Source of the DNA: Steroidobacteraceae bacterium
GTDB lineage: Bacteria; Pseudomonadota; Gammaproteobacteria; Steroidobacterales; Steroidobacteraceae
NCBI GenBank assembly: GCA_017853175.1
Contig: JAFMKA010000001.1
Span: 84,576-148,575 of the forward strand
Direction: 5' to 3'
Length of the DNA: 64,000 nt
Made by a program: the position numbers and the translations under genes. Below the pieces are notes generated by a model. It did not search any database, was not told the origin of the DNA, and saw only the letters and a list, made by a program, of their open reading frames with translations. Positions within the stretch are counted from its first letter, which is position 1; every line of letters begins with the position of its first letter. Shown here piece after piece: positions 39,790-58,830 of this stretch.

Positions 39790-40323
39790 TTAATCGAGCG
39801 AGTCGAATTCTCGAGGCAGTCGATAGGTCTTTTTGAAGTCGACTAAAATCTTCTTCGCTTTCTGGCGTTCTTCAGTGGTGAGCAAGCGCTCGACCATCGC
39901 GGCGTTTTTTTCTACGGTCGAAACGAAATCTTTCTCCCAACCTCCGGCCGTTGCGCTCGAGATCGACATCCACACATAGGCCTTGAAAGGGTTGGGCTCT
40001 ACCCCTTTCCCGTAGGCGTAACGCAGACCGATTTCTGCTCGCGCTCGCGGGTTGCCGCGCTGCGCCGCGGTCAGATACCAGCGACTGGCGAGTCGCTCGT
40101 TTTTCTTGACGCACAAACCTCGTGCGTACAACTCGGCGAGACCGAAAGGTGACGTGGAGTCACCCGACTTCTCGCTTTTCATCCAGGCATCACGAGCTTC
40201 GCAGTATTGACCTGAGCGAAATAAATCAAAGCCGCGAATGAATTGCGCCTCGGCGACTGCAGGCAACGTCACGAACGCCAACGCGATCAGAGCGGCCGCA
40301 AAACGCCGATAGTCGTTCGTCAT
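39790..40323 (-). CDS. Periplasmic Sel1-like repeat protein in the stator operon
   Basis: 177 residues. Signal peptide ending VAEAQ (about 27). At least two Sel1/TPR-like repeats: SPFGLAELYARGLCVKKNERLASRWYLTAAQ and ARAEIGLRYAYGKGVEPNPFKAYVWMSISSA (each split here by repeat boundaries). Such repeats bind proteins. ATG overlaps the motB stop (ATGA), so it is co-expressed with the stator. A role in stator assembly would be inference. Confidence 0.7.
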   Translation of the reverse strand: MTNDYRRFAAALIALAFVTLPAVAEAQFIRGFDLFRSGQYCEARDAWMKSEKSGDSTSPFGLAELYARGLCVKKNERLASRWYLTAAQRGNPRARAEIGLRYAYGKGVEPNPFKAYVWMSISSATAGGWEKDFVSTVEKNAAMVERLLTTEERQKAKKILVDFKKTYRLPREFDSLD

Positions 40324-44936: not shown

Positions 44937-47048
44937 TTAAGCCGCTGCAGTCTGCCGCGCTTGCACTGTGATACTGGTGTTGACTCGGAGGTTCGTGTCC
45001 TCCGGGAGTTCTGAATACGAAAGCACCGACAGCCCCGGAATCCGCGGCCGCAGAATACGTGACAACCAAGGTCGGAGCGTCGGCGACGTCACGAGCAACG
45101 CAGGTCGATCGCTATTCAACTCATCTTGCGACGCCTTGCTCACAGAACGTAGTAACCCCTCGGCGAGCTCAGGCTCCACCGGCACGTTGCCACCCTGACC
45201 ACGACGCGCCGTGGCATGCAGCACCTGCTCGAGCTCGGGTGCCAAGGTCATCACCGAAAGCTCATCGCCATGCTGTGCGTACTGCTGAACGATCATGCGA
45301 CCGAGCGCGATACGAGCCACGCCCGTGAGTTCATCGATGTCCTGAACTTTTTCGGCAACCGGCGCGATAGCGAGCAAAACACCACGAAGGTCGCGGATCG
45401 ATACGCCCTCGGCGAGCAAGTTCTGTAGAACTTGCGTGAGCGTACCAATCGACAATTTCTTCGGAATCAATTCTTCGACGAGTTTTGGCGCCGCGGCAGC
45501 CAGCTTGTCGACGAGCTGCTGCGTCTCATCATGACCTAACAGCAGATTACAGTTTTCCTGCAGGATTTTGTTGAGGTGCGTCGCGATCGTGGTGCTCGCA
45601 TCGACTACGGTGTAGCCGAGTGAGCGGGCGTAGTCACGCTGCGCCGGATCGATCCATACGGCATCGAGACCGAAAGTGGGGTCTTTCGTTCGCAGACCCT
45701 GCAGTTCGCCATGAACCACGCCCGAGTGAATCGCGAGCTCGCGAGTCGGCTTGACCTCGCCGCGCCCGATCACCACACCATTCACCATGATCTGATAGGC
45801 CTCGGGTCGCAGATCGAGGTTGTCGCGAATGTGAACCTGCGGAATGAGAAAGCCGAGTTCGTAGGTCAACTTCTTTCGAATTCCGCGGATGCGCGTGACC
45901 AGCGAACCCCCTTGCTGAGCGTCGATCAGCGCGACGAGCGCATAACCGACCTCGAGACCGATGGCATCAGCCTGCTGCACATCTGACCACGACAATTCTT
46001 TCGGAGCAGCCGGAGCCTCCTCGGACTTCTTCTCCGCGAGCTTCACCTTCTCGCGTCGACGCATCAGCAGCCAAGCGGCGCCCGCGGTGATCGCCGCGAG
46101 CGATAAAAACGCGACGTGCGGCATGCCCGGGATGACGCCGAGCAGCGCGAGGATGCATGCGGTCAGCCACCAGGCTTCGATATTGTTGAACTGATTGGAC
46201 GTCTGCTGATGCAGCGACTCTTCGCCGGATACGCGGGTCACGATGATCGCCGTCGCGACCGACAGCAACAGCGAGGGCACCTGGGCGACGAGTCCGTCAC
46301 CGACCGCAAGGGTGGTGTAACGCTCGAGAGCCATGCTCATAGACATCCCGTGCTTCATCGTACCGACGAGAATGCCGCCGACGATGTTGATGAGCAGAAT
46401 CAAAATACCGGCAACCGCGTCACCACGAACGAACTTGCTGGCACCGTCCATCGATCCGTAAAAATCGGCTTCAGATGAAATCTCGCGACGTCGTACCCTC
46501 GCCTGCTCCTGGTTGATCAGCCCCGCAGCGAGATCGGCATCGACGGCCATTTGCTTACCGGGCAAGGCATCGAGGGTAAATCGCGCGGTCACTTCGGACA
46601 CTCGTCCCGCACCTTTGGTGACGACGACGAAGTTGATGATGACGAGGATTGCGAAGACAACGATGCCGACGATGTAATCACCGGCGACAAGCACCGAACC
46701 GAAGGCTTCGATCACGTGACCTGCCGCATCGGTACCTTCGTGACCGGAGCTGAGCACCACTCGGGTCGAGGCCACGTTGAGCGCAAGGCGCAACAAAGTT
46801 GCGAAAAGCAGTACGGTCGGAAAGACCGAGAAGGAAAACGGCCGCGCGGTCGCGATCGCCAAAAACAAAATCACGAGCGACAAGGCGATGTTGAACGTGA
46901 AGAAAAGATCGAGGAGCAGCGGCGGAACCGGAAGCAGCAACATCCCGAGAAGCAGTAGGAACCCCAACGGGATCGCCACGGCCTCAAGCGGCAACTTCTT
47001 GCCGAATTGTCGAAGGTTCGACACCATGTCGAACGGGATATCTGCCAT
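44937..47048 (-). CDS. flhA: Flagellar export apparatus protein FlhA
   Basis: 703 residues. Eight membrane helices in the first ~330 residues, with the FHIPEP signature region VRRREISSEADFYGSMDGASKFVRGDA spanning about 150-185. The large cytosolic domain (~360-700) receives substrate-chaperone complexes. First gene of the flhA-flhF-flhG-fliA-motAB operon; a sigma-54 promoter lies about 80 bp upstream of the ATG. Confidence 0.97.
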   Translation of the reverse strand: MADIPFDMVSNLRQFGKKLPLEAVAIPLGFLLLLGMLLLPVPPLLLDLFFTFNIALSLVILFLAIATARPFSFSVFPTVLLFATLLRLALNVASTRVVLSSGHEGTDAAGHVIEAFGSVLVAGDYIVGIVVFAILVIINFVVVTKGAGRVSEVTARFTLDALPGKQMAVDADLAAGLINQEQARVRRREISSEADFYGSMDGASKFVRGDAVAGILILLINIVGGILVGTMKHGMSMSMALERYTTLAVGDGLVAQVPSLLLSVATAIIVTRVSGEESLHQQTSNQFNNIEAWWLTACILALLGVIPGMPHVAFLSLAAITAGAAWLLMRRREKVKLAEKKSEEAPAAPKELSWSDVQQADAIGLEVGYALVALIDAQQGGSLVTRIRGIRKKLTYELGFLIPQVHIRDNLDLRPEAYQIMVNGVVIGRGEVKPTRELAIHSGVVHGELQGLRTKDPTFGLDAVWIDPAQRDYARSLGYTVVDASTTIATHLNKILQENCNLLLGHDETQQLVDKLAAAAPKLVEELIPKKLSIGTLTQVLQNLLAEGVSIRDLRGVLLAIAPVAEKVQDIDELTGVARIALGRMIVQQYAQHGDELSVMTLAPELEQVLHATARRGQGGNVPVEPELAEGLLRSVSKASQDELNSDRPALLVTSPTLRPWLSRILRPRIPGLSVLSYSELPEDTNLRVNTSITVQARQTAAA

Positions 47049-47212
47049 TTTTATTTCAACTAAATCAATAAGTTACAAGCATTCCACCCGAGCGTTACCC
47101 GGCAAACGGATACCGCCCCCTTATTGATCTGCAACCAACGTGCCATACGGATTTTCGGCAGTGCTGCGAGCGCGCGCTCAAGCCTGGGTTCGACGGGCCG
47201 ACTCTACGAGAC
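47049..47212. promoter_or_regulatory. Divergent region between flhA and the FlgP-like gene
   Basis: 164 bp, no gene. It carries the sigma-54 promoter of flhA (47130-47145, minus) and, on the plus side, the leader of the FlgP-like gene. No sigma-28 or second sigma-54 element for the plus-strand gene was recognised. Confidence 0.5.
47130..47145 (-). promoter_or_regulatory. Sigma-54 (RpoN) promoter of flhA
   Basis: TGGCACG-N4-TTGCA on the minus strand matches the RpoN consensus TGGCACG-N4-TTGCW with the invariant GG and GC ten bases apart. The start point would be about 70 nt before the flhA ATG. Control by a FleQ-type activator is expected from polar-flagellum systems; no such gene is in the window. 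Confidence 0.75.
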
Positions 47213-47794
47213 GTGAGCAGTCGTATCGCACCAATACTGACCGTCTCAGCCGCGCTCGTCATGAGCGGCTGTGCGTCCCTGTCCGTAAAGGACCCTTTGG
47301 CACCACCAGAGCGTCCCGTCCGCGTGAGCGTGACGAACGGAAAGTCGTGGGAGCGTTTCACGCCTCGATCGGTGCTCTTGCACCGACGCGGCGCGGGTCG
47401 CCAGGACATCACCGTCGCGACGGTGACACCGCTTGAAGAGCCTGCCTCGATCGAGCGTCACGCACCCGCTCAAGTGCTGACTGACCTTACGGCCTCCGGT
47501 TTCGCATCGATCACCGCTCAGTCGGGCAGTGATGCCGCGCAGCGACGATTGCAAGCCGCTCGAGCAGCCAAGCTCGACGCGTATCGAAATCTTGCCGAGC
47601 AGCTCTATGGCGTCGAGTTCGCCAGTGACTCGGTCGTCGCCGATAGCCGTGTGCGTGAAGATCATATTCGAGTGCGGATCTCGGGTGTGATCGCCGGCGC
47701 TGAAGTCATCATGCTCGAACCGCTGGGCAACGACTCTTACCAAGCGACCGTGCGTCTGCCTGCGGCAAAAGTTGCGGCGCTGACCGGCCGGTAA
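47213..47794 (+). CDS. LPP20-family lipoprotein, FlgP-like
   Basis: 193 residues, GTG start. Lipobox VMSGC (Cys20), then an LPP20-like domain (AARAAKLDAYRNLAEQLYGVEF and IRVRISGVIAGAEVI). FlgP of Vibrio and Campylobacter has this layout and forms the outer-membrane basal disk or H-ring around the flagellar L ring. Its place between the two flagellar operons, next to a FlgT-like gene, supports that role; sequence alone supports only LPP20. Confidence 0.65.
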   Translation: MSSRIAPILTVSAALVMSGCASLSVKDPLAPPERPVRVSVTNGKSWERFTPRSVLLHRRGAGRQDITVATVTPLEEPASIERHAPAQVLTDLTASGFASITAQSGSDAAQRRLQAARAAKLDAYRNLAEQLYGVEFASDSVVADSRVREDHIRVRISGVIAGAEVIMLEPLGNDSYQATVRLPAAKVAALTGR

Positions 47795-47813
47795 GCGGCC
47801 TGGAACTAAAGCC

Positions 47814-48806
47814 GTGAATCACCTCGATACCCGACACTTTCGACGACACGCGGCGGCAACCTTCGGTCTGATCGTTGCACTTCTCGCCACGCCCTCCCCT
47901 GCGCAGCCACGCGACGACCGAATGGCGGATGCCTCGCAGCAGCGTGATGCCGAGAGACTGCAACGCTGCATCGAATCGCAGCTCGCTCCGTGGCAAGTGG
48001 AATCGACCGCGAGCACCGACGGTCGGGTGGGCGACACCGTTCGAGTCACACGTTGGGGCAACGCGCCAAAAGTTGACTGCAGTAATCGTGTTCGCTCGTC
48101 CGAGGAACACTGCCAAAGTCCCGGCGATCTCCAGCGTGTGGTTCGACTCGAATTTGACACGGGTGAAGCGCACCCGGCCTGGTCTGCGAATGATCGTGCT
48201 CGACTCGAGGATTTGATCCCGACGACTCTCGAGAACATCGCAGGCAACGTTCAGCTTCAGTACGGCGATCCGCGAAGCGCCGAGTTTACCGGCGAAATTC
48301 TGCGGGTCCGCCTCGACTATCGAGGCATGTCGGCCTTGCAGCGTGATGTCGATGAGTGGATTCGTGGCCCGCGCGAGTTGCAGGTCACTCTGACGCTCGT
48401 AGACCCCAGCCGCAGGAATCGCGTGCTCGCGGTTCGCACGGTGACGCTGCAACAGAGCCCACAGTTTCGCGAACGCTACGCGTCCACCTCGAGCACACGA
48501 TGGATGCGACAACTGCTCGAGCGTATCGAAGCTACCGCAAACGATGTTCTCGCTCCCGTGGCCTGCGATACACCGTGGCTCGATGTCACGGCCGATCGCG
48601 GCAAGATGTGGCTGAACACGGGGCGTTACACGGGGCTGCACGAAGGTCACTCGGTGTTGCTCGTACCGACGACCGATTCAGCGCTCGCGAGCCGTTGGCC
48701 TATCGCGAGAATCCGTACCCTCGTGAATGGAAGTCGCGCTGAGCTCGAGATCACTCGCGGGTCACGCGACTTATGCGAGCTCGGCTGTCGAGCGATTCTT
48801 CTCTAA
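47814..48806 (+). CDS. FlgT-like periplasmic flagellar protein
   Basis: 330 residues. Signal peptide to about residue 31 (PSPAQ). Middle part (~60-235) has alternating strands and helices with four Cys; the C-terminus (PWLDVTADRGKMWLNTGRYTGLHEGHSVLLV … ELEITRG) resembles the FlgT C-terminal domain, a small beta barrel with the phrase N-x-G-x-x-x-G-L-x-x-G. FlgT is the H-ring core protein in Vibrio. Starts 19 bp after the FlgP-like gene, so one operon. The assignment is moderate. Confidence 0.55.
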   Translation: MNHLDTRHFRRHAAATFGLIVALLATPSPAQPRDDRMADASQQRDAERLQRCIESQLAPWQVESTASTDGRVGDTVRVTRWGNAPKVDCSNRVRSSEEHCQSPGDLQRVVRLEFDTGEAHPAWSANDRARLEDLIPTTLENIAGNVQLQYGDPRSAEFTGEILRVRLDYRGMSALQRDVDEWIRGPRELQVTLTLVDPSRRNRVLAVRTVTLQQSPQFRERYASTSSTRWMRQLLERIEATANDVLAPVACDTPWLDVTADRGKMWLNTGRYTGLHEGHSVLLVPTTDSALASRWPIARIRTLVNGSRAELEITRGSRDLCELGCRAILL

Positions 48807-48807
48807 G

Positions 48808-49656
48808 TTAGCCACCCTGCTTTCGGATCGCCGGCACTCCGGACTGCAGTTCGCTACCGCGACGCTCGATGAGATCGCGAAGCGAAGCGATTTCTTTCTT
48901 TAAGCGTTCGAGTTCTGCAACCGTCGCCTTCAGATCTTTGGCCTGCGCATCGGAGAGCACGGCTACCGCGCGTTCTTTAGCAGGCTTTTTGTCAGAGTCA
49001 CCCTGCTTCTCGAGCGCCGCAAAACGCGCATCGATACGTGCGATGCCGCTTTCTAATCCACTGATCGATTTCTCGAGTTGAGCGAGGCGTTTTGACTCCT
49101 CGCTTTGGCGTGCCGCACCGGCTCGCGGGGCTTCGGCAACGGCGCCGCGCAGCGAGGCGAGCATCTCGTTCAATCGCCGAACCTCCAGTTGCTGCAGCGC
49201 GAGGCGATCCGTTTTGACTTGCTCACGGAGCGTCACCACTGCACGCTGGGTCGTGTCGTCGGCGATCTTCTGAAACTTCTCGAGATTAGATTCGAGCGTG
49301 GAGAGCTCTTTGAGCGTCTTCTCGACTTTTTCGAGGTTCTCCGCTTGTACTAAGATCGCGGCATCCAGTGCAGCCGAGCGTTCGTTGAGTTTTGAAAACA
49401 CCATCGCAACGACGACGGCCATCACGACACCCACGCTCAACATGATTGCGCCGAAGATCGCCGGAGCATTGCGAACCGCTCGCGTGGTCTCGAGATTGGT
49501 CTCGACCACATGAGATAGCCGAGAAATCGCCTCATGTGTCGACTGGGCGCTGTCGTTGGCAGCGTCTGCCGCATCGAGCACGAGCGAAGTCAGTGTCTCG
49601 AGAGGGCTATCGCTCGCGGCGTTCTGGGGGTTCTTGACCTCAGGCTGTTCACTCAT
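48808..49656 (-). CDS. Membrane-anchored coiled-coil protein, end of flagellar operon
   Basis: 282 residues from the ATG preceded by GGAGATCAGTCAA; an ATG five codons upstream is possible. Residues 1-65 are polar, a membrane helix covers about 66-87 (APAIFGAIMLSVGVVMAVVV), and the rest is almost all coiled coil (about 90-135 and 150-270) with heptads. No domain recognised. Convergent with the FlgT-like gene, 1 bp between stops. It belongs to the same run of genes as flhB. Confidence 0.7.
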   Translation of the reverse strand: MSEQPEVKNPQNAASDSPLETLTSLVLDAADAANDSAQSTHEAISRLSHVVETNLETTRAVRNAPAIFGAIMLSVGVVMAVVVAMVFSKLNERSAALDAAILVQAENLEKVEKTLKELSTLESNLEKFQKIADDTTQRAVVTLREQVKTDRLALQQLEVRRLNEMLASLRGAVAEAPRAGAARQSEESKRLAQLEKSISGLESGIARIDARFAALEKQGDSDKKPAKERAVAVLSDAQAKDLKATVAELERLKKEIASLRDLIERRGSELQSGVPAIRKQGG

Positions 49657-49698
49657 TTGACTGATCTCCATGACGACGGCGTGAAGACATCACGCCGA

Positions 49699-50181
49699 TC
49701 ATTTTCCGTTCTCGCCACGAAGCCGCCGCGTACGGGCGACCGTGGCATTGATTCTTTCGCGCAGGCTATCGGAGAAGGTCATCGCTTCAGCAATGCGATT
49801 GACTTCTGCAAGCATGGCCTCGGCTTTCTGATGCGCTTCCTCGATCTGCGACTGACGCTGTTCCACCGACTGCACTAAGGCGTCCACTTTGGCTGCGGAG
49901 GCTTCAAGACTCTCGAGTGTCTCATCAACTTTCGCCCTGGGATCGACCTCTTCCTCTATGGGCGCGCGCGTGATGGGCGTCAGACCCGAATCGACATCGA
50001 CCACGTCTTGCGCCGTATGAAAGTCTTCGGCGCCGCGCTCGACGGCCACATCAGAGACCGCAGAGTTAGTTCCCGAGTTCAGTCGCTGGACGGGCATATC
50101 ACCGGACTTAAATACTCCCGTGACTTCTCCATGCGCTGCGCCCGAATCGCTATGGTCCATGTCTGTCGGCAACTTCGTCAT
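49699..50181 (-). CDS. Acidic coiled-coil protein in the flagellar operon
   Basis: 160 residues, no signal peptide or membrane helix. The N-terminal half is acidic and probably disordered; residues ~85-140 form a coiled coil (ETLESLEASAAKVDALVQSV, QIEEAHQKAEAMLAEVNRIA) and the end is basic (ARTRRLRGENGK). A GGAGGAT ribosome site overlaps the end of the preceding gene, 4 bp away. Family unknown. Confidence 0.65.
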   Translation of the reverse strand: MTKLPTDMDHSDSGAAHGEVTGVFKSGDMPVQRLNSGTNSAVSDVAVERGAEDFHTAQDVVDVDSGLTPITRAPIEEEVDPRAKVDETLESLEASAAKVDALVQSVEQRQSQIEEAHQKAEAMLAEVNRIAEAMTFSDSLRERINATVARTRRLRGENGK

Positions 50182-50185
50182 GGCT

Positions 50186-51199
50186 TCATCCTCCAGTCTT
50201 GCGCTTGGGTGCTACAGCGGCGCGCGCCACAGCTGGCTCCACACGACACGCGCCGAGTCGCCACACTTGGGTACGTGCAGCAGCCGCAGCCGATTCACTC
50301 GCGAACGGCCCGACCTGCAGACGGAACCGGCCGGACTCATTAGTCACACGCGTCGGCGTGGTACGGCCGATACGCGCGATCAGAACGTCGACGGACTCAC
50401 GATCGCCGTGAAGACCGCAGTCGTAAACCAACGACGACGATTTCGAGGGCGTCAAGAAGGCGCTTTGTACCGCATAGCCGATTAACAAGACGGCTACGAC
50501 GGCCGCGACGGCCTTGACGGGCATGGTCAGCCAACGACGTGGCGACGTCACATCAAATCCGCGAGTCTCCGCTCTCTCGCGCGCGAGCTCCGCAAGTACA
50601 TCGGGTATCGCGGCCGCGGTCGGCGCTGCGACCTTTGGTGTTGCAACCGCGGGTGTTGCAACCGCTGGCGTAGCGACCGGAGGCGGCATCGGCACCGACG
50701 GAATAACCGGTGCGTCCATGTCGGCGGAAAGCTCGATTTCACTTTCGCCCAAGCCGTCGATATCCCAGATCATCGCGAGGTCGGTGACCTCGGAGATCGG
50801 CAGTCGCTGCAGACCCGCTCGCGTGCATCGTGCAAGCAGTAGCGTTCTGAAGGGACTACCGCGAAGTCCTTGAACGATTCGGCGCAAGGATGCCGCTTCG
50901 ACAGACGATAGCGACTCCGCATCATCGATGATCAAAAGATGTGGGGGATTTTGTTTGCCGCTCGCCAACAATGACTCGAGCGGAATTTCCGCCAGCAGCC
51001 GATTGGCCGACTGAAGCAAAGATTCGGCATCGCCGGGCGCATGAAACTCGACTCGGGCTCCGCCCTGACGTAAATCACGAACGAAATCTCGCGCACTCGC
51101 AGAGAGCGACTCACTCGATGCCGAGCAGAGCAGCAGAAGCGGTGGCGTGCCGCTCAGCACGCACTCGCGCGCTACGGCTGCGTTATCAGTTGCCGTCAT
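50186..51199 (-). CDS. SPOR-domain membrane protein with decayed ATPase-like domain
   Basis: 337 residues. N-terminal part (1-160) folds like an AAA/MshM-type domain: Walker-B-like HLLIIDDAESLS at 87-98 and LLLARCTRAGLQRLP, but the P-loop position reads LLLLCSASSES, without Gly-Lys-Ser/Thr, so nucleotide binding is doubtful. A Pro/Ala linker with short repeats (PAVAT) leads to a membrane helix (226-248) and a C-terminal SPOR domain (258-322, FRLQVGPFASESAAAAA). SPOR binds denuded peptidoglycan at division or pole sites. Similar in layout to DamX of vibrios. Its ATG overlaps the flhB stop. Confidence 0.75.
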   Translation of the reverse strand: MTATDNAAVARECVLSGTPPLLLLCSASSESLSASARDFVRDLRQGGARVEFHAPGDAESLLQSANRLLAEIPLESLLASGKQNPPHLLIIDDAESLSSVEAASLRRIVQGLRGSPFRTLLLARCTRAGLQRLPISEVTDLAMIWDIDGLGESEIELSADMDAPVIPSVPMPPPVATPAVATPAVATPKVAAPTAAAIPDVLAELARERAETRGFDVTSPRRWLTMPVKAVAAVVAVLLIGYAVQSAFLTPSKSSSLVYDCGLHGDRESVDVLIARIGRTTPTRVTNESGRFRLQVGPFASESAAAAARTQVWRLGACRVEPAVARAAVAPKRKTGG

Positions 51200-52353
51200 G
51201 GGCCTTTCTCCGTCATCGGTTTACCGAATTCGTCGAACATAAATTCTGGAGCAAGCGTCGTCTTCGGCAGCTCCGGCGTCTCCAGACCCGGCGTCAACGC
51301 GCTGAGTCGGAAGACATACGCGAGGATCGCCGCAACGGCTCGATAGAGCCCCTCGGGAATCGGCGAATCGACTTCGGTCGTAAAGTAAATCGCACGCGCG
51401 AGCGGTGGCGCGGACACGAGCGGCACACCCGCGAGCTTCGCGCGTTCTTTGATCGAGGCGGCAATCTCACCCCGTCCCTTGGCAAGCACCATCGGCACGG
51501 CATTTCGCATTTCGTCGTAGACGAGTGCGACGGCGAACTCGGACGGGTTGACGATCACGACATCGGCATCCTTGACCTTCTCGAGCATCTTGCCGCGACT
51601 GAACTCGCGCTGCTTACGACGAATCTGACGCTTCACCTCGGGTCGTCCCTCGATGTCCTTCATTTCATCGCGCACTTCCTGTTTCGTCATTCGCAGTCGA
51701 CGCAGGTAGCTCCAACGCTGATAGGGCACATCGAGTAAGGCGATTGCCGCCGCCGCCGCACTCACTAGCGTAAAGGTGATCAGCGCGAGCCAGGCGCCGT
51801 CGGCGATCATCGGTTCGAGCGCATCGCGCGACATCGCGAGCATCTCGGTACGTCGCGACCAGAGAACTGCGCCGAGCACGGCAGCGATCACCAGAAATTT
51901 CAGTAAATTTCGAAGCAGCCCCATCCAGGCTTGAGCGCCGAATATGCGCTTGAGGCCACTCAACGGATTGAGCTTGCTCAATTTGGGCGCAGCCGCTTTG
52001 CCTGAAAAGTTGAAGCCGCCATTTAATGCGGCAGCGATGAGCACCACGACGATCGAGGTGACGAAAATCCATCGCACTGCCCAGAAGCCCTCGATCAAAC
52101 GAGAACCCATGAGCATCGGCAGATCTTCCGGATTTTCAATTTGATCACGGGAGAACGTGAGGCCCGATTTCAACAAAGTCGAAAATCCGCTGATGATTTC
52201 CCCACCGAGAAAAATCACCAGTAGGCAGATCACGAGCACTTCGACCGCGCCACCGAAGTCGGGTGAACGGGGAAGCTCGCCGCGCTCACGGGCCTGCGTG
52301 AGCTTCCGCGCGGTAGGTTCTTCTGTTTTTTCTTCGCCTTGCTCTTCGGCCAT
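51196..52353 (-). CDS. flhB: Flagellar export switch protein FlhB
   Basis: 385 residues. Four membrane helices (near 33-55, 90-110, 148-165, 187-207) and a cytosolic domain. The cleavage site is N269-P270-S271-E272 in VIVNPSEFAVALVYDE, at exactly the Salmonella position, where N-P-T-H is normal; Asn and Pro needed for cyclisation are kept. FlhB controls the switch from rod/hook to filament substrates together with FliK. 3 bp after fliR. Confidence 0.95.
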   Translation of the reverse strand: MAEEQGEEKTEEPTARKLTQARERGELPRSPDFGGAVEVLVICLLVIFLGGEIISGFSTLLKSGLTFSRDQIENPEDLPMLMGSRLIEGFWAVRWIFVTSIVVVLIAAALNGGFNFSGKAAAPKLSKLNPLSGLKRIFGAQAWMGLLRNLLKFLVIAAVLGAVLWSRRTEMLAMSRDALEPMIADGAWLALITFTLVSAAAAAIALLDVPYQRWSYLRRLRMTKQEVRDEMKDIEGRPEVKRQIRRKQREFSRGKMLEKVKDADVVIVNPSEFAVALVYDEMRNAVPMVLAKGRGEIAASIKERAKLAGVPLVSAPPLARAIYFTTEVDSPIPEGLYRAVAAILAYVFRLSALTPGLETPELPKTTLAPEFMFDEFGKPMTEKGP

Positions 52354-52356
52354 GAC

Positions 52357-53133
52357 TCAGGCCTCCCCGAGTAGCCGAGGGCGAATGTACGCTCCGGCCT
52401 GCTGCCACAGCTCGACGATGCGCTCGGCGATCGCCGGCATGAGTACGAACAGTAGCCCGAATCCCACCAAAAGGCTCACGGCAAAGCCCACGGCGAAAAC
52501 GTTCAGAGAGGGTGTCGCGCGTGACAACGCGCCGACACCGAGATTGACGGCCAGGAGCGCAAGTAGCAACGGCGCTGCGAGCAACGCCGCTCCCTTGAAG
52601 ATGATGATCGAAAATTCGAGTAGCGAAGGGATGTCGACGAGTCTGAACTCGCCGGGCGGCATGGCACGCACGCTCTCGGTGATCATGCTGATCATGATCG
52701 TGTGCCCACCGGCCGTCAGAAACACCAACAACGCGAGCAAGTTGAGAAACTGCGACAAAATCGGCGTCGATCCGAGTGTCGGGTCAAAGGACTGCGCAAA
52801 GCTGATGCCGACCGACATCGAGATCTGTTCGCCCGCGGTCACGACGGCGGCATTGACGAACTGCAGGGCGAGCCCCATCGACACTCCGATCAGCGCCTCG
52901 CTCAATACCAACAAAAGATTCGGCTCGCCGTAAGGGAGCCCGGGATTAGAAAGCGATGACGGAAACACCGGCATGACCACCATGCACAGCACCGCCGAGT
53001 AGATCACCCGAATTCGCCCGGTACCGGCTGACTGACTGAAAATCGGCGCAACCAAAAAGAACGCCGTCAGCCGCGTCAGCGGCAGCAGCATCGACTGCAG
53101 CCAGTTCAGGGTGAGTACACCGAGGTCGAGCAT
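52357..53133 (-). CDS. fliR: Flagellar export protein FliR
   Basis: 258 residues, five to six hydrophobic segments, with the family phrases LTRLTAFFLVAPIF near the N-terminus and ALQFVNAAVVTAGEQISMSVGISFAQSFDP centrally. Component of the FliPQR export gate core. Start follows fliQ stop by 4 bp. Confidence 0.95.
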   Translation of the reverse strand: MLDLGVLTLNWLQSMLLPLTRLTAFFLVAPIFSQSAGTGRIRVIYSAVLCMVVMPVFPSSLSNPGLPYGEPNLLLVLSEALIGVSMGLALQFVNAAVVTAGEQISMSVGISFAQSFDPTLGSTPILSQFLNLLALLVFLTAGGHTIMISMITESVRAMPPGEFRLVDIPSLLEFSIIIFKGAALLAAPLLLALLAVNLGVGALSRATPSLNVFAVGFAVSLLVGFGLLFVLMPAIAERIVELWQQAGAYIRPRLLGEA

Positions 53134-53137
53134 GGCA

Positions 53138-53407
53138 TCAGAGCCCGACGTCCGGGATTCGCTCGAATATCCGTCGGGCGAAATCGATCAACAACTGAAG
53201 CTGCCATCCGCCGATCAGCAAAGTGAGCAACATGACCGCGATCAGTTTCGGTAGAAAACTCAACGTCATTTCGTTGATGGACGTCGCCGCCTGAAAGATG
53301 CCGACGACCACACCCACGAGTAGCACGGTGACCAGGATGGGACCTGCGACGAGCCCGCCGACCCACATGGCTTCACGAACCAGATCGACGACGCCAGTCT
53401 CGTTCAT
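53138..53407 (-). CDS. fliQ: Flagellar export protein FliQ
   Basis: 89 residues, two membrane helices (about 17-38 and 52-72). GPILVTVLLVGVVVGIFQAATSINEMTLSF is the family signature, spread over helix one and the loop. Part of the FliPQR gate. Overlaps fliP by 4 bp. Confidence 0.95.
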   Translation of the reverse strand: MNETGVVDLVREAMWVGGLVAGPILVTVLLVGVVVGIFQAATSINEMTLSFLPKLIAVMLLTLLIGGWQLQLLIDFARRIFERIPDVGL

Positions 53408-54174
53408 GGTAGCGGGGCTGCGAAGCTCGCAGCGAGTGATCCGAGAATTAACGCCCAGCCGTCCACTAAGACGAACAGCAGGAACTTGAAAGGCAGTGCG
53501 ATCATGACCGGCGACACCATCATCATGCCCATCGACATGAGGACGCTCGCGACGACGAGGTCGATGACGAGAAACGGTATGTAGATGAGAAAGCCGATCG
53601 TAAAGGCCGTACGAAGCTCACTCGTCAAAAACGACGGTAACAACACACTGAGGGGTGTATCGAGCGGCGCCTTCACCGGCGGCGTCTTCGCGAGGTCCAT
53701 GAAGAGTTTGAGATCCGACTCGCGGGTTTGAGCGAGCATGAATTTCTTCATTGGATCGACGGCGCGCTCGAGTGCCGTCTCAAAAGGAATGCTCTCGGCG
53801 ACATAGGGTTGCAACGCGACACGCTGCACTTCGTCCAGCGTCGGGGCCATCACGAAAAAGGTCAGAAACAGCGCAAGGCCGACGATAACTTGGTTCGGAG
53901 GCGTCTGCGCCGTTCCGAGAGCCTGACGTAAGAGACCGAGGACGATGACGATACGCGTGAAGGCCGTCATCGAGAGGATGATCGCCGGCAGCAACGTCAG
54001 CAGCGTCATCAACCCGAGCGCTTGTAGCGTCAAGCTGTAGGCCTGACCTCCGCCCGCGATCGGCTTTGTACGCAGTAATTCGATGGCGGTTGCATCCTGA
54101 GCCAGAGCGACCGGCGCCGCAACGCAGAACATCACCGTCAAGAGCGGCCACGCGAACCTCGTGAACGATTTCAC
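53404..54174 (-). CDS. fliP: Flagellar export protein FliP
   Basis: 256 residues. Cleavable signal peptide (ending VALAQ, about 26), then helices with TRIVIVLGLLRQALGTAQTPPNQV, LALFLTFFVMAPTL and the C-terminal SVLMSMGMMMVSPVMIALPFKFLLFV region split over two helices: the FliP signatures. Core of the export gate. Overlaps fliO by 4 bp. Confidence 0.96.
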   Translation of the reverse strand: MKSFTRFAWPLLTVMFCVAAPVALAQDATAIELLRTKPIAGGGQAYSLTLQALGLMTLLTLLPAIILSMTAFTRIVIVLGLLRQALGTAQTPPNQVIVGLALFLTFFVMAPTLDEVQRVALQPYVAESIPFETALERAVDPMKKFMLAQTRESDLKLFMDLAKTPPVKAPLDTPLSVLLPSFLTSELRTAFTIGFLIYIPFLVIDLVVASVLMSMGMMMVSPVMIALPFKFLLFVLVDGWALILGSLAASFAAPLP

Positions 54175-54443
54175 GAACGAGGCTCCTGTTCACTAGAGTC
54201 GTCGGCGTCTGCGGTGGCGATTTTTGAAATCGAACTCGGTGTCACACCGAGCAAATGATCTTGCCCGGCAAAACGAACGACGACCAACTTCTCGCGCGTA
54301 CCCAGTGACGCATGAGCGGTGATGCTAAGCGTGCTGCGCGAGGCGCCCTGAGTGCCGAAGCGGAAACGCCGCAGCATCCAGATGGCGAGCGCCAACAAAC
54401 CGCCGACGAGCAGCAAAGCGCTGATGTAACGAATAGGATCCAT
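54171..54443 (-). CDS. fliO: Flagellar protein FliO
   Basis: 90 residues. One membrane helix (about 6-25) and a short cytosolic FliO domain (LSITAHASLGTREKLVVVRFAGQDHLLGVTPSSI). Chaperone for FliP assembly. Short for the family because N- and C-terminal extensions are absent. Confidence 0.88.
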   Translation of the reverse strand: MDPIRYISALLLVGGLLALAIWMLRRFRFGTQGASRSTLSITAHASLGTREKLVVVRFAGQDHLLGVTPSSISKIATADADDSSEQEPRS

Positions 54444-54461
54444 CTGCGAATGATCTCGATC

Positions 54462-54773
54462 TTAAAGATGCTTGACGCGGTCTTCCGGATCGACCACCTG
54501 AGTCAATCGGATTCCGTAGCGTTCGTTGACCAACACCACTTCGCCACGAGCGATGACGGTGTTGTTGACACAGACATCGAGCGGCTCACCGGCCACGCGA
54601 TCGAGCTCGACCACGCTGCCCTGCCCGAGACGCAGCAGGTCGCGGATACGAAGCAATGAGCGCCCGACCTCAACCGAAACACTCACCGCGACGTTCTGGA
54701 TCAACTCCAGCTGAACTGCAGACTCCGCTCCGCCGTCACCCTTCGAAATATTGTTTGTCGCTGACTCGTTCAT
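54462..54773 (-). CDS. fliN: Flagellar motor switch protein FliN
   Basis: 103 residues: a ~20-residue polar start, then one SpoA domain (VAVSVSVEVGRSLLRIRDLL, GSVVELDRVAGEPLDVCVNN, ARGEVVLVNERYGIRLTQVV). C-ring protein with FliM. Overlaps fliM by 4 bp. Confidence 0.95.
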   Translation of the reverse strand: MNESATNNISKGDGGAESAVQLELIQNVAVSVSVEVGRSLLRIRDLLRLGQGSVVELDRVAGEPLDVCVNNTVIARGEVVLVNERYGIRLTQVVDPEDRVKHL

Positions 54774-55891
54774 GCTGCCGTTGCTCCTACAATTTTTCCT
54801 GTTTGCGTCGCTGCACGCTTTCTTCGCGCAGCCGCGTTATTACCCACTTCCGACTCATCGGCGTGCTCGGCACCTGCGCTATCGGACCCGTTCTTGTTTT
54901 CTTCCGGAGGATCGAGAACACGCTCGATGCGAATTGCCGCGTTACCATCGGCCGTACCGTACTCGGCATCGAATACGTGTGAGGACTGGACGAGCACCTT
55001 GACGCTCGGCGGCGGCTTGAACCACAGCGTATCGCCCGCTCTAATCGAGGCGAGATCGAGCGCCGACACGCGAAGCGTGACGAGCTGCGCCACCATCTCG
55101 AGCTCTGCATCCGATACCGCGTCTCGCAATTGGTCGGACCACCGGGCCGCGAGCTTCTCGTCTCGTTCGCCCGCCTGTAGACGGCCGCGCAACAGCAATC
55201 GAATCGGCTTCAACGCAGAAAACGGGTACATCACCGTCAGTTGACCGCGAACGTCGGAACCTAACTCGAGTTCGAATCGACTGACGACGACGGTCTCACG
55301 GTCTTCACCCACCTGCGCAAACGCAGGGTTGATTTCGCGGCTGACGAATTCCGGATTGAGTGCATAGACCGGTGCCCAGGCCTCGCGAAGGTTGTCGAAC
55401 ACCGACTCGAGCAACAACTGAATGATGCGCTCCTCGGTCGGCGTGAAGCCTCGCAAAGGCGAGAGTTCGAGAGATCCGCCACCGCGACCACCGAAGAAGC
55501 TGTCCACGGCGCCATAGACGATCGACGGCTCGAGCGTCACAAGTCCGTAACCACGCAAGGGCGGGAAACGAACGATGTTGACGTTACAGGGCGACGGCAA
55601 AGTCTTGAGATAGGCGCTGAAGGTCATGACGTCGAACGGCATCACTGTCACCTTGACCGCCTGCCGAAGCAAGGTCAGGAGACTGCCGCGGAACTGCCGC
55701 GAGAAACGATCATTGATCATCTCGAGCGCAGCGAGTTGGCCGCGAGAAGTGGTGTCGTTAGCGATGAGGCTATACGGCTGCACCTCGGAGGACGACGTGT
55801 CCCCGGCGCTCGTGTCGACGTCGCCGCTCTGCATGGCCTCGACCAGCGCGGAGACTTCCTCTCGACTGAGGACTTGACCAGACGTAGACAT
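54770..55891 (-). CDS. fliM: Flagellar motor switch protein FliM
   Basis: 373 residues. The N-terminal LSREEVSALVEAM is the CheY-P binding helix; the middle domain has YGLVTLEPSIVYGAVDSFFGGRGG and the conserved E-x-R-x-I region, and the C-terminus is a SpoA domain (LRVSALDLASIRAGDTLWF). About 40 residues longer than E. coli FliM, mainly a polar C-terminal tail. Confidence 0.95.
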   Translation of the reverse strand: MSTSGQVLSREEVSALVEAMQSGDVDTSAGDTSSSEVQPYSLIANDTTSRGQLAALEMINDRFSRQFRGSLLTLLRQAVKVTVMPFDVMTFSAYLKTLPSPCNVNIVRFPPLRGYGLVTLEPSIVYGAVDSFFGGRGGGSLELSPLRGFTPTEERIIQLLLESVFDNLREAWAPVYALNPEFVSREINPAFAQVGEDRETVVVSRFELELGSDVRGQLTVMYPFSALKPIRLLLRGRLQAGERDEKLAARWSDQLRDAVSDAELEMVAQLVTLRVSALDLASIRAGDTLWFKPPPSVKVLVQSSHVFDAEYGTADGNAAIRIERVLDPPEENKNGSDSAGAEHADESEVGNNAAARRKRAATQTGKIVGATAA

Positions 55892-55902
55892 GATTTTCTT
55901 TG

Positions 55903-56586
55903 TTACTGGAATACGAAATGAGTGAACATCACTTCGTCGATACCGCCGAAGTCTTCGTTACGAATCAGCACGTCGTTCATGGCATCGCGCAAGGCTTCGG
56001 CTAATTTTGAGCGACCCTCGACTGAGGTCATCTCTTCCTCGCCGAACTGGCTCGAGGTCGCGATGATGGCAGCCTCGATCGCGATCTGATGCTTCGTGAC
56101 CCGCTCGACGATCTTGTCGCCGTAGAACGTCTTGTACGCAACCTTAAACTGGACGAACTTCTTCGAGTTCGGCACGTTGAGCGTGAAATCACGCTCTTTG
56201 CCGTCAGCGCCGGTGATGGGCTTGTACGTCGCCGCGAACTTCTCGCTCTCGGGAACTTCAGCCGCCGATTTTTCTTCACCACCGCCCGCTTCGCCGTGCT
56301 CGCCCGCGGCAGCCTCCTCGCCGTGGCCACCCTCTTCGGCACCACCACCGTGCTCGCCACCACCGTGCTCGTCACCGTGCTCGCCAGCTTTCGCCTCGGC
56401 TGCAGGGGGATTGAAGAAACCCGTGAAGTAGAGAGTCGCTCCCACTGAGGCACCGATCAGCGCAATCGCGCCGGCAGCGATCATCACGAAGAAAATCAGT
56501 TTTGATTTCTTGCTCGGAGCTCCCTCTTCGCCCGCCGGAGCGGCCGCCTCTGGAGCTTTCTTCTTGTCGTCCTTTTTGTCTGCCAT
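55903..56586 (-). CDS. fliL: Flagellar protein FliL with a His/Glu/Gly-rich linker
   Basis: 227 residues, longer than typical FliL (about 150-180). A basic cytosolic start, one membrane helix (30-52), then an extra linker at 61-115 made of Gly, Glu, Ala and five His (GEHGDEHGGGEHGGG and following), and the usual periplasmic stomatin-like domain (AATYKPITGADGKERDFTLN, VERVTKHQIAIEAAIIATSS, GGIDEVMFTHFVFQ). FliL rings surround the stator. Confidence 0.93.
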   Translation of the reverse strand: MADKKDDKKKAPEAAAPAGEEGAPSKKSKLIFFVMIAAGAIALIGASVGATLYFTGFFNPPAAEAKAGEHGDEHGGGEHGGGAEEGGHGEEAAAGEHGEAGGGEEKSAAEVPESEKFAATYKPITGADGKERDFTLNVPNSKKFVQFKVAYKTFYGDKIVERVTKHQIAIEAAIIATSSQFGEEEMTSVEGRSKLAEALRDAMNDVLIRNEDFGGIDEVMFTHFVFQ

Positions 56587-56620
56587 CGCTGTGTACCGTC
56601 AGTAAAAAGTAGGAGAGGAA

Positions 56621-58318
56621 TCAAACGAACAAATCGACCGCGCCCGATGCAGGGTTCTTACCCGGCATCATGCGCGAAGCGCCCACCTCGGCAACCGAAT
56701 CAACGTCGTTGACTCGCCCGCGCAAGGAGGCCTGAGAGAACATTTTACGGGCAGGCTCGCTGAAGGCACGCGAGCCCGATTGGCCAAACGTCCAGCCAGC
56801 GAGTTGCAGGCCGGCAGACTCGAGCGACTCTCGCAGTCTCGGCAGGCCAGATTCGAGGAGCGCACGCACTTCCCCGTTCGCGACACCGACATTGGCTGCA
56901 ACAGTATTGCCACGCATCGTCAGATCGATATCCATCGCCCCGAGGTTGGCGGGATCGAGTTGTAAGCTGACGCTCCAATTCTCATCCCGAATCTGCCCGA
57001 GAACGCGCTGTGCCACCGCATCGGCAAACGCCTGTACGCGCTCACCGAAAGAGAGTTTGGGATCGGGCGTGCTCAATACCGCTGAGGTATCACCGACGAC
57101 GATCGACGCTGCCGATACACCCGTGGCGGAATTGAGAATCGACGACGTCGGTGCGACCAACGACGACCATTCGGCGCTCTCAGCGATCGGCGATGCCGAT
57201 ACACCCGTGGCGGAATTGAGAATCGACGACGTCGGTGCGACCAACGACGACCATTCGGCGCTCTCAGCGATCGGCGATGCCGCCATCGCGAAACTCATCT
57301 CCGGAATGACCGCGTCGCGCGGCGCATGTTTGGGTGAGCGTTCGCCGAGGCTGCCCTCGCCACCACTGGCCGACATCGACGCGGCGCCCGCTCCTGTCAT
57401 TGCAGCCATGTCTCGCAACACCGCCAAGGGCTCGGCCGATGACGCTCGCTCAGTCTTCATCAGACGTTGCGGTAATCCCTCCGAACTCGACAGCGATACG
57501 GCATCACGTGCGTCGATATTGCGCAGCTCGATGGCCGCATCAGCTGCCGGCATCACTGCCGATATCGTCACAGCCCGCGTACGCAATTGACCCATCGTCG
57601 ATGCGACGGCGGGCATCGCTTCGGACGCGGTCGGTACGGTGTCGGTCAGCTCCGACTGCAAGGGCGCCGCAGCGACCATCGCGCCGTTTTCGGCAGGCTC
57701 ACGCGCCTCAGTCATCATCGTCGCCGACGATAATCGTGAGCGCCAAAGCAGAAGATCTTCATCGGCAATCGGCGAAGCGTGGGTCGCAACAGGCGTCTCA
57801 GGAATCGTGTCGACGTGTTCGAGGTTCGGATCAACGACCGCCGCTGCTTCGGAACGCGCCGCCATGGTGACGAGCGTCGGCGTCAAAATCGTCGGAACAG
57901 CCGTAGGAACAGCCGTAGGAATCGCCGTCGGAACCTCGGGGTCTACAGCGACAGCCATCGACTCGACCTCCGCCTCGGGAGCCGTCTCGCTCAAAAGTAA
58001 GCGAGCGAGGTCGCGATCGATTCCCATATCGACGGCGAATTCTTCGAGCTTCTGGTCCGAAACCGGGACTAATTTCAGTCGCGCCGGGAGCGAAGCACGG
58101 CCCGGCGAATCCGGCAAACCCTTGCCGGTATCCTGGGCTTCTTCGGCCCCCATCGTCTCATCGGGCGACTGCTCCGAGGCCGAAGCCTCGCGCATGACCG
58201 CCGAAAACGAAGGGCCGTCTGCCCCCGAAAAAGAGACTTCACCCAGCTTTTCCAGCGGGTTTTTGCTCGTCGGGGTCGAGGAGCCGATCGCGTTTAAGAG
58301 TGCTTCTGGGACAGCCAT
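56621..58318 (-). CDS. fliK: Flagellar hook-length control protein FliK
   Basis: 565 residues. The long N-terminal ruler part is Ala/Ser/Glu-rich and contains a perfect tandem repeat of 28 residues (SPIAESAEWSSLVAPTSSIL...) and short PTAVPTAVPT repeats. The C-terminal Flg_hook domain (~440-540) has VSLQLDPANLGAMDIDLTMRG and VRALLESGLPRLRESLESAG, which acts on FlhB. Since hook length follows ruler length, the duplication should matter. Confidence 0.9.
   Translation of the reverse strand: MAVPEALLNAIGSSTPTSKNPLEKLGEVSFSGADGPSFSAVMREASASEQSPDETMGAEEAQDTGKGLPDSPGRASLPARLKLVPVSDQKLEEFAVDMGIDRDLARLLLSETAPEAEVESMAVAVDPEVPTAIPTAVPTAVPTILTPTLVTMAARSEAAAVVDPNLEHVDTIPETPVATHASPIADEDLLLWRSRLSSATMMTEAREPAENGAMVAAAPLQSELTDTVPTASEAMPAVASTMGQLRTRAVTISAVMPAADAAIELRNIDARDAVSLSSSEGLPQRLMKTERASSAEPLAVLRDMAAMTGAGAASMSASGGEGSLGERSPKHAPRDAVIPEMSFAMAASPIAESAEWSSLVAPTSSILNSATGVSASPIAESAEWSSLVAPTSSILNSATGVSAASIVVGDTSAVLSTPDPKLSFGERVQAFADAVAQRVLGQIRDENWSVSLQLDPANLGAMDIDLTMRGNTVAANVGVANGEVRALLESGLPRLRESLESAGLQLAGWTFGQSGSRAFSEPARKMFSQASLRGRVNDVDSVAEVGASRMMPGKNPASGAVDLFV
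57111..57278. repeat. Perfect 84-bp tandem duplication inside fliK
   Basis: Positions 57111-57194 and 57195-57278 are identical base for base. The unit is 28 codons, so the frame is kept. No third copy is seen. Confidence 0.97.
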
Positions 58319-58320
58319 GG

Positions 58321-58830
58321 TTACGGAGTTTTATTGCCGGTTGATGAGGACAACCGGGAGGTTGCAACTTGGATGCCAAGTTGGCTCTGACTGATCCGCT
58401 GCGCCACGTCGTCGAGGTTTTTTTGCTCCGTTTTTTCGGCCTCACGACGGGCCTCTCGCCCGACCCTATCGGCCACATGCTCGAGGGCATCGGCAAAGCG
58501 TCGCTTCTCCCGAACCTCTTCCATGGCCGCCTCGAGCAGAAACTCCGCCTGAGCCACTTCGTTTTGCTGCTTCTCGGACAGCTCAGTGAGCCACCCTGAA
58601 AAATTCCGATAGAGCCGCAGACTGCCAACCGTCTGCCCAGCGCTTTCGCGCTGCTCCACCAACTGCCCGTAATCGCCGAGATAGCGTTGCACTGTCTCGA
58701 GTCGACTTTGCTCGGTGAAAAGACTCCGTCTGCGATCTGCCGCGGCGCCCTCGGCCACGGCTGCGAGCGTCTCGCCGATGCGAGCGATGCGCTCGAGTCG
58801 ATCGGCTCGCTGACGGCTGCGGGCACTCAC
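58321..58830 (-). CDS. fliJ: Flagellar protein FliJ
   Basis: 169 residues, almost wholly helical coiled coil, basic start. Length, composition and place between fliI and fliK fit FliJ, the stalk of the export ATPase that contacts FlhA. Sequence is weakly conserved in this family. Overlaps fliI by 4 bp. Confidence 0.85.
   Translation of the reverse strand: MSARSRQRADRLERIARIGETLAAVAEGAAADRRRSLFTEQSRLETVQRYLGDYGQLVEQRESAGQTVGSLRLYRNFSGWLTELSEKQQNEVAQAEFLLEAAMEEVREKRRFADALEHVADRVGREARREAEKTEQKNLDDVAQRISQSQLGIQVATSRLSSSTGNKTP

Follow-up and report, generated by a model that had tools for sequence, protein, structure and literature searches.

Three genes lie between flhB and flhA in a flagellar gene cluster of a Steroidobacteraceae bacterium, which raises the question of whether they belong to the flagellum and, if so, which part of it they could form. 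Accessory structures of flagellar motors vary, and they determine torque, placement and passage through the cell wall. One of the three genes encodes a protein with a SPOR domain, a division-type module whose dedication to one flagellum would be new. Here, we describe the locus within the whole 64-kb stretch of DNA analysed (the window), its distribution, and the functions that may be proposed for the three proteins, which we refer to as A, B and C.

Organization of the locus

The block is anchored by a flhB gene of the system that we term type A (51196-52353, minus strand; PF01312, E 5.8e-110). It is followed on the same strand by gene A (50186-51199; 337 amino acids), predicted to encode a SPOR protein without a P-loop, gene B (49699-50181; 160 amino acids), encoding an acidic coiled-coil protein, and gene C (48808-49671; 287 amino acids), encoding a coiled-coil protein with one predicted transmembrane (TM) segment. 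The stop codon of flhB and the start codon of gene A share an ATGA, a 4-nt overlap, and gaps of 4 bp and 27 bp separate A from B and B from C. A first reading of the DNA (the original prediction) had reported three genes after flhB with an ATGA overlap and a 4-bp gap, and its coordinates, overlap and gap were all right.

Convergent with gene C, on the plus strand, are a candidate gene for a FlgT-like secreted protein (47814-48806), whose stop codon is 1 bp from that of C, and a flgP homologue (47213-47794; LPP20 domain, lipobox C20). The order in the window continues with flhA (44937-47048, minus strand; PF00771, E 4e-252), which heads flhA-flhF-flhG-fliA-motC-motD. The three-gene set that had been proposed is real, but the full unit comprises five genes, A-B-C plus the convergent flgT-like gene and flgP, and the proposal had missed that they belong to a second flagellar system. 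The whole cluster (44937-58318), like loci L052-L065 and L113-L116, represents this divergent second (type A) system.

The pattern TGGCRY-N5-TTGCW has exactly two perfect matches in the 64-kb window, both sigma54-type -24/-12 sites on the minus strand: TGGCACGTTGGTTGCA (47130-47145), upstream of flhA, and TGGCATCCAAGTTGCA (58363-58378), upstream of fliK at the head of fliK...flhB-A-B-C. Sites of this type were found at both places in the other type-A loci whose contigs reach there; three short contigs that do not extend to the regions upstream of fliK and flhA (L053, L059 and L064) contain none. Since these sites lie only before fliK and flhA, A-B-C probably closes a sigma54 operon, fliK...flhB-A-B-C, this being the simplest reading.

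Two further features of the cluster were noted. In the product of fliK (56621-58318), a stretch of about 27 residues is perfectly duplicated in tandem (ASPIAESAEWSSLVAPTSSILNSATGVS). Directly after motD, a gene at 39790-40323 (minus strand) encodes a Sel1-repeat secreted protein; MotX is likewise a Sel1-type periplasmic protein.

Distribution and origin of the block

Homologues of A were identified in all 14 genomes with a type-A FlhB (64-100% identity) among 60 relatives searched, the window's own genome included. Among 396 genomes of the order, C homologues occur in all 15 with a type-A FlhB (E <= 1e-100), and none of the remaining 381 gave a true match; two further matches to C among the 396 involve the C-terminal coil only (E ~1e-4). 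Taken as a union, all 17 searched genomes that have a type-A FlhB also contain A and/or C, and a separately fetched contig (L007) provides an eighteenth. This bears out the claim that A-B-C is a dedicated, previously undescribed gene set tied to the export genes.

The order and orientation of the A-B-C homologues are unchanged in the 18 genomes, and the same gene order is seen in three genera. Where the region is intact on a single contig, A-B-C plus the convergent pair always occupy the space between flhB and flhA (contig ends interrupt it in G013, G019 and G023, and the G006 contig stops before flhA), and flgP and the flgT-like gene always adjoin A-B-C. By contrast, flhA directly follows flhB in the 37 other flhB loci that we read (26 from the genus, family and order plus 11 from the class, where a twelfth contig breaks off after flhB and is not counted), an arrangement that the original prediction had named among the usual ones. 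The family's standard system lacks the A-B-C block. Five genomes (G006, G007, G008, G010 and G019) contain both the type-A and the standard system, so that some relatives offer, in the same cell, a built-in control that lacks the block.

Profiles of C run against samples of 369 class and 279 phylum genomes returned only matches to the C-terminal coil (E 1e-5 to 1e-3), and neither A nor C had a match in plasmids. Homologues scattered away from flagellar genes would have spoken against a flagellar link; none that is convincing was found in the class and phylum genomes, and the idea is not refuted. A broader suggestion, that the set is general to polar flagellates, does not hold: as far as sampled, the block appears limited to one divergent flagellar system of one family. 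A rare distant source outside the sampled genomes is possible. The separately fetched contig L007 (RFZO01000045.1) is titled Actinomycetota; it has the window's flagellar gene order, and its FliM, FliN, FliP, FliQ, FliR, FlhB and FlhA are 81-94% identical to those of the window. It is probably a mislabelled MAG.

A tree of 48 FlhA sequences groups the 14 type-A proteins in a single clade (support 1.0), whose stem measures 0.52 substitutions per site. The FlhA proteins of the family's standard system are separate from type A and group by genus, family and order. To judge from the long separate stem, the type-A system probably either came in from outside or branched off very early. G205, which belongs to another genus, is nested within the type-A clade of the window's genus, and its placement suggests that cluster and block were transferred together.

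The three genes are under purifying selection. Pairs whose synonymous sites are not saturated give dN/dS values of 0.10-0.17 (A), 0.05-0.20 (B) and 0.05-0.09 (C), with 0.02-0.07 for flhB. Nine of nine measured loci have the 4-nt overlap of flhB and A, and L113 and L115, from two more genera, share the ATGA junction. Gene order is kept over a divergence that reaches down to 53% identity for FlhB and 23% for A. We conclude that one flagellar lineage has A-B-C as a dedicated gene set, which is under selection and inherited together.

Gene A and its SPOR domain

Protein A has an N-terminal alpha/beta domain, a Pro/Ala-rich linker, one predicted TM segment (~222-252) and a C-terminal SPOR domain (PF05036; 25.3 bits versus a cut-off of 21) that is also matched by 13 of 13 homologues (E <= 0.1). 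Structure models were built from two-sequence alignments, and the one for A is of low quality (mean pLDDT 46); even this low-confidence model matches the SPOR structures of RlpA, CwlC and FtsN (Foldseek probability 0.99-1.0, E 0.009-0.03).

A had been described as a SPOR protein with a decayed ATPase-like domain. The SPOR assignment was confirmed, whereas the evidence for an ATPase-like domain is a sub-threshold match to AAA_22 (14.8 bits versus a cut-off of 27, E 0.036), seen in 3 of 13 homologues at E <= 0.1 (best E 0.0012). Strands and helices alternate in the low-confidence model of this domain, and the 11 homologues checked all lack a Walker A motif ([AG]x4GK[ST]). As far as this evidence goes, the N-terminal domain may be AAA-like, and P-loop-less, at most. 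Homology to a GspA-like ATPase of the same genome was not borne out (hhalign E 0.08, probability 0.7%). A GspA-like ATPase gene of this genome directly adjoins a SPOR lipoprotein gene (L005/L117, G000:C100), so that an ATPase/SPOR pair is also encoded there by two separate genes.

Changes of FtsN residues Q251, S254, W283, R285 and I313 lower septal localisation, the glutamine being the most conserved, and the cysteines C252 and C312 have also been discussed (PMC6895207). We placed these residues in 11 gene A homologues by HMMER alignment, with C312 and I313 set by eye on the conserved cysteine. The position of FtsN Q251 (RlpA Q270) is occupied by Asp in 10 of the 11 and by Arg in the other. 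The positions of S254 (L, V, S, T or A), W283 (R, G, K or T) and I313 (R, S, Q or H) vary, while that of R285 is Arg in 10 of 11. The FtsN-like cysteine pair, Cys261/Cys318 in A, is invariant.

The canonical contact set for denuded glycan is therefore not conserved across the 11 homologues, and the proposed recognition of glycan at septa or new poles is doubtful. It appears that the fold and, probably, the disulfide are kept and the main glycan contact is lost. This SPOR domain may have no affinity for denuded glycan; glycan binding could still occur, because many SPOR-glycan contacts are made by the main chain (PMC6895207). The C-terminus of A is likely periplasmic, since the cysteine pair is invariant.

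One copy of the block deviates. In G009 (L065, G009:C20, 10026-11983), gene A stops before the TM segment and the SPOR domain, no downstream frame restores the latter, and a frame break interrupts flhB; B, C, the flgT-like gene and flgP remain. This copy is decaying or misassembled.

Genes B and C and the adjoining ring genes

Protein B is acidic (30 D/E versus 18 K/R), has a C-terminal coiled coil and the conserved motifs G(V/I)FKS and NSAVSxxAVxR, and contains neither a TM segment nor a signal sequence. Protein C has a near-invariant TSLVLDAADAANDSAQ segment, one TM segment (~68-97) and a coiled coil of about 190 amino acids. Its most conserved stretch is the segment N-terminal to the TM. 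From a weak charge bias, we predict that C is likely a one-TM protein with a periplasmic C-terminus.

C matched no known family above cut-off, and no Pfam or NCBIfam model above cut-off covers B, C or the N-terminal domain of A. MotE/FlgY-type Pfam families matched none of 13 homologues of C, and the Pfam and NCBIfam models for the HubP/FimV polar landmark (LysM, FimV C-terminal domain) matched none of A, B and C. Matches of the B and C coils in Pfam, NCBIfam and PDB (tropomyosin, BLOC, bestrophin-like, viral and designed coils) were rejected as compositional, and a relationship between the two coils themselves (E 0.0017, probability 15%) was not accepted as homology.

The flgP product falls below the LPP20 cut-off as a single sequence (18.4 versus 25.9); its family profile finds solved FlgP/lipoprotein chains (E 2.8e-25 to 1.5e-23), and the lipobox cysteine C20 is invariant in an 11-sequence alignment. 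By this profile, the protein is FlgP. Its neighbour may be FlgT and is treated here as a candidate only. The Pfam models FlgT_N, FlgT_M and FlgT_C matched none of its 12 homologues, and an alignment with true FlgT is collinear over 231 columns and weak (hhalign E 0.012, probability 3.7%). A fold search with its predicted structure (mean pLDDT 40) yielded no usable hit.

The T-ring of Vibrio contains MotY. MotY_N was not found in 13 genomes searched, with a model that is also silent in control genomes yet recognises a MotY (L145, E 1.2e-36). An alternative inner scaffold is therefore plausible in the type-A motor.

Proposed function of A, B and C

We propose that A, B and C serve the type-A flagellum as its own accessory parts and form an inner-membrane and periplasmic scaffold, a reading to which we give an even chance of being right. 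The three proteins would be made early, alongside the type-A export gate. Protein A, with a cytosolic ATPase-like domain, a TM segment and a periplasmic SPOR domain, would tie the basal body to peptidoglycan; the coiled coil of C could bridge inner-membrane parts towards an outer-membrane ring of FlgP and the FlgT-like protein; and B may serve as an acidic cytosolic adaptor. A complex of A and C, perhaps with B, would support this ring, much as GspA/GspB do for secretins. There are precedents: scaffolds exist in the motors of polar flagella (PMC7990780), GspA, which has a peptidoglycan-binding domain, works with GspB (PMC9239104), and MotF accompanies FlgT and FlgP in the Fla1 motor of Rhodobacter sphaeroides (PMC7277832). 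Operon transcription, topology, complex formation, wall binding and function are all predicted here from sequence.

More tentatively, and with less than even confidence, we suggest that A-B-C represents three new families and a motor structure not seen before, in which a SPOR-based anchor or scaffold replaces the MotX/MotY T-ring or MotF, with the SPOR domain retargeted to a flagellar protein or to another wall ligand, and with the second flagellum probably acquired horizontally. Judged by title and abstract, the open-access literature yielded no flagellar SPOR protein. A SPOR-domain protein dedicated to one flagellum would be new; the type of module, a motor accessory, is already known.

The alternative that fares best, though we consider it unlikely, is a stator module in which the FlgT/FlgP ring would recruit C, acting like MotF, so that C opens or holds MotC/MotD, while A fixes C to the wall. 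The one-TM layout of C resembles that reported for MotF, and a MotC 75-97% identical to the window's was found in 14 of 15 type-A genomes searched (window included; in two pieces in G003) and not in three type-B-only genomes. However, A-B-C would share its operon with the export gate rather than with the stators, and at least four genomes (G001, G007, G019 and G148) have motC outside the cluster, whereas A-B-C is never separated from it. The type-A motC genes outside the flagellar cluster in these four genomes are 75-82% identical, and G148 has a different motC (38%) near fliA.

Rather less probable is a role in polar placement or cell-cycle coupling, as first envisaged, in which the SPOR domain on glycan-bare peptidoglycan would mark new poles and direct or license assembly. 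It draws on the SPOR fold of A, on flhF and flhG in the same cluster and on the fact that SPOR proteins whose function is known serve division or morphogenesis (PMC6895207). It sits poorly with the exchange of the key Gln for Asp and the variable contact positions, and with the lack of any FimV/HubP-type family in A, B and C, and it leaves unexplained both the strict link to flgP and the flgT-like gene and the restriction to a single lineage.

We regard as a shade more doubtful again the possibility that the coil of C is cytoplasmic and acts with B on FlhA/FlhB/FliHI or on substrate delivery, the SPOR domain of A being an anchor only. An operon with fliO-fliP-fliQ-fliR-flhB, the overlap with flhB, the high conservation of C before its TM and the lack of a TM or signal in B would all fit such an accessory of the export gate, but the weak charge bias favours N-in for C, and the constant pairing with outer-ring genes would be left unaccounted for. 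That A-B-C are passengers without a flagellar role is highly improbable: all type-A systems have a single source, so position could be mere inheritance, but the selection on all three genes and the order kept over deep divergence in three genera argue otherwise.

Comparison with known systems

The scaffold that we favour can be set beside several described structures. With flgP and a possible flgT, the type-A block recalls the H-ring and T-ring of Vibrio (FlgO, FlgP, FlgT, MotX and MotY), from which it differs in the lack of a MotY_N match in the 13 genomes searched. We know of no counterpart of A, B or C in the Vibrio rings. As a membrane-anchored coiled-coil protein, C resembles the E-ring components FlgY/MotE/FlbB around the motor, but it has no Pfam match to a FlgY/MotE-type family, and the E-ring is reported to be absent in gamma-proteobacteria (PMC13023049).

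The Fla1 motor of R. sphaeroides has FlgT and FlgP and is without MotX/MotY; its MotF has a TM segment at residues 54-74 and a large periplasmic C-terminus, and requires FlgT for recruitment (PMC7277832). By reported layout alone, C is similar to MotF in its single TM near the N-terminus and its long C-terminal part. MotF has been reported mainly from Rhodobacteraceae, and no A or B partner has been described for it.

Protein A shares with DamX, FtsN and DedD a predicted cytosolic N-terminus, one TM segment, a linker and a C-terminal SPOR domain with the FtsN-like cysteine pair. Unlike them, it is encoded in a flagellar operon, has Asp in place of the contact Gln, and is found only with the type-A flagellum. 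GspA/GspB (ExeA/ExeB) likewise combine, in one protein, an ATPase-type domain, a TM segment and a peptidoglycan-binding periplasmic domain, as A may do, with a second one-TM protein as partner, and carry the type II secretion machine through the wall (PMC9239104). Protein A differs from GspA in having no P-loop and a SPOR domain instead of PF01471, and its client would be a flagellum.
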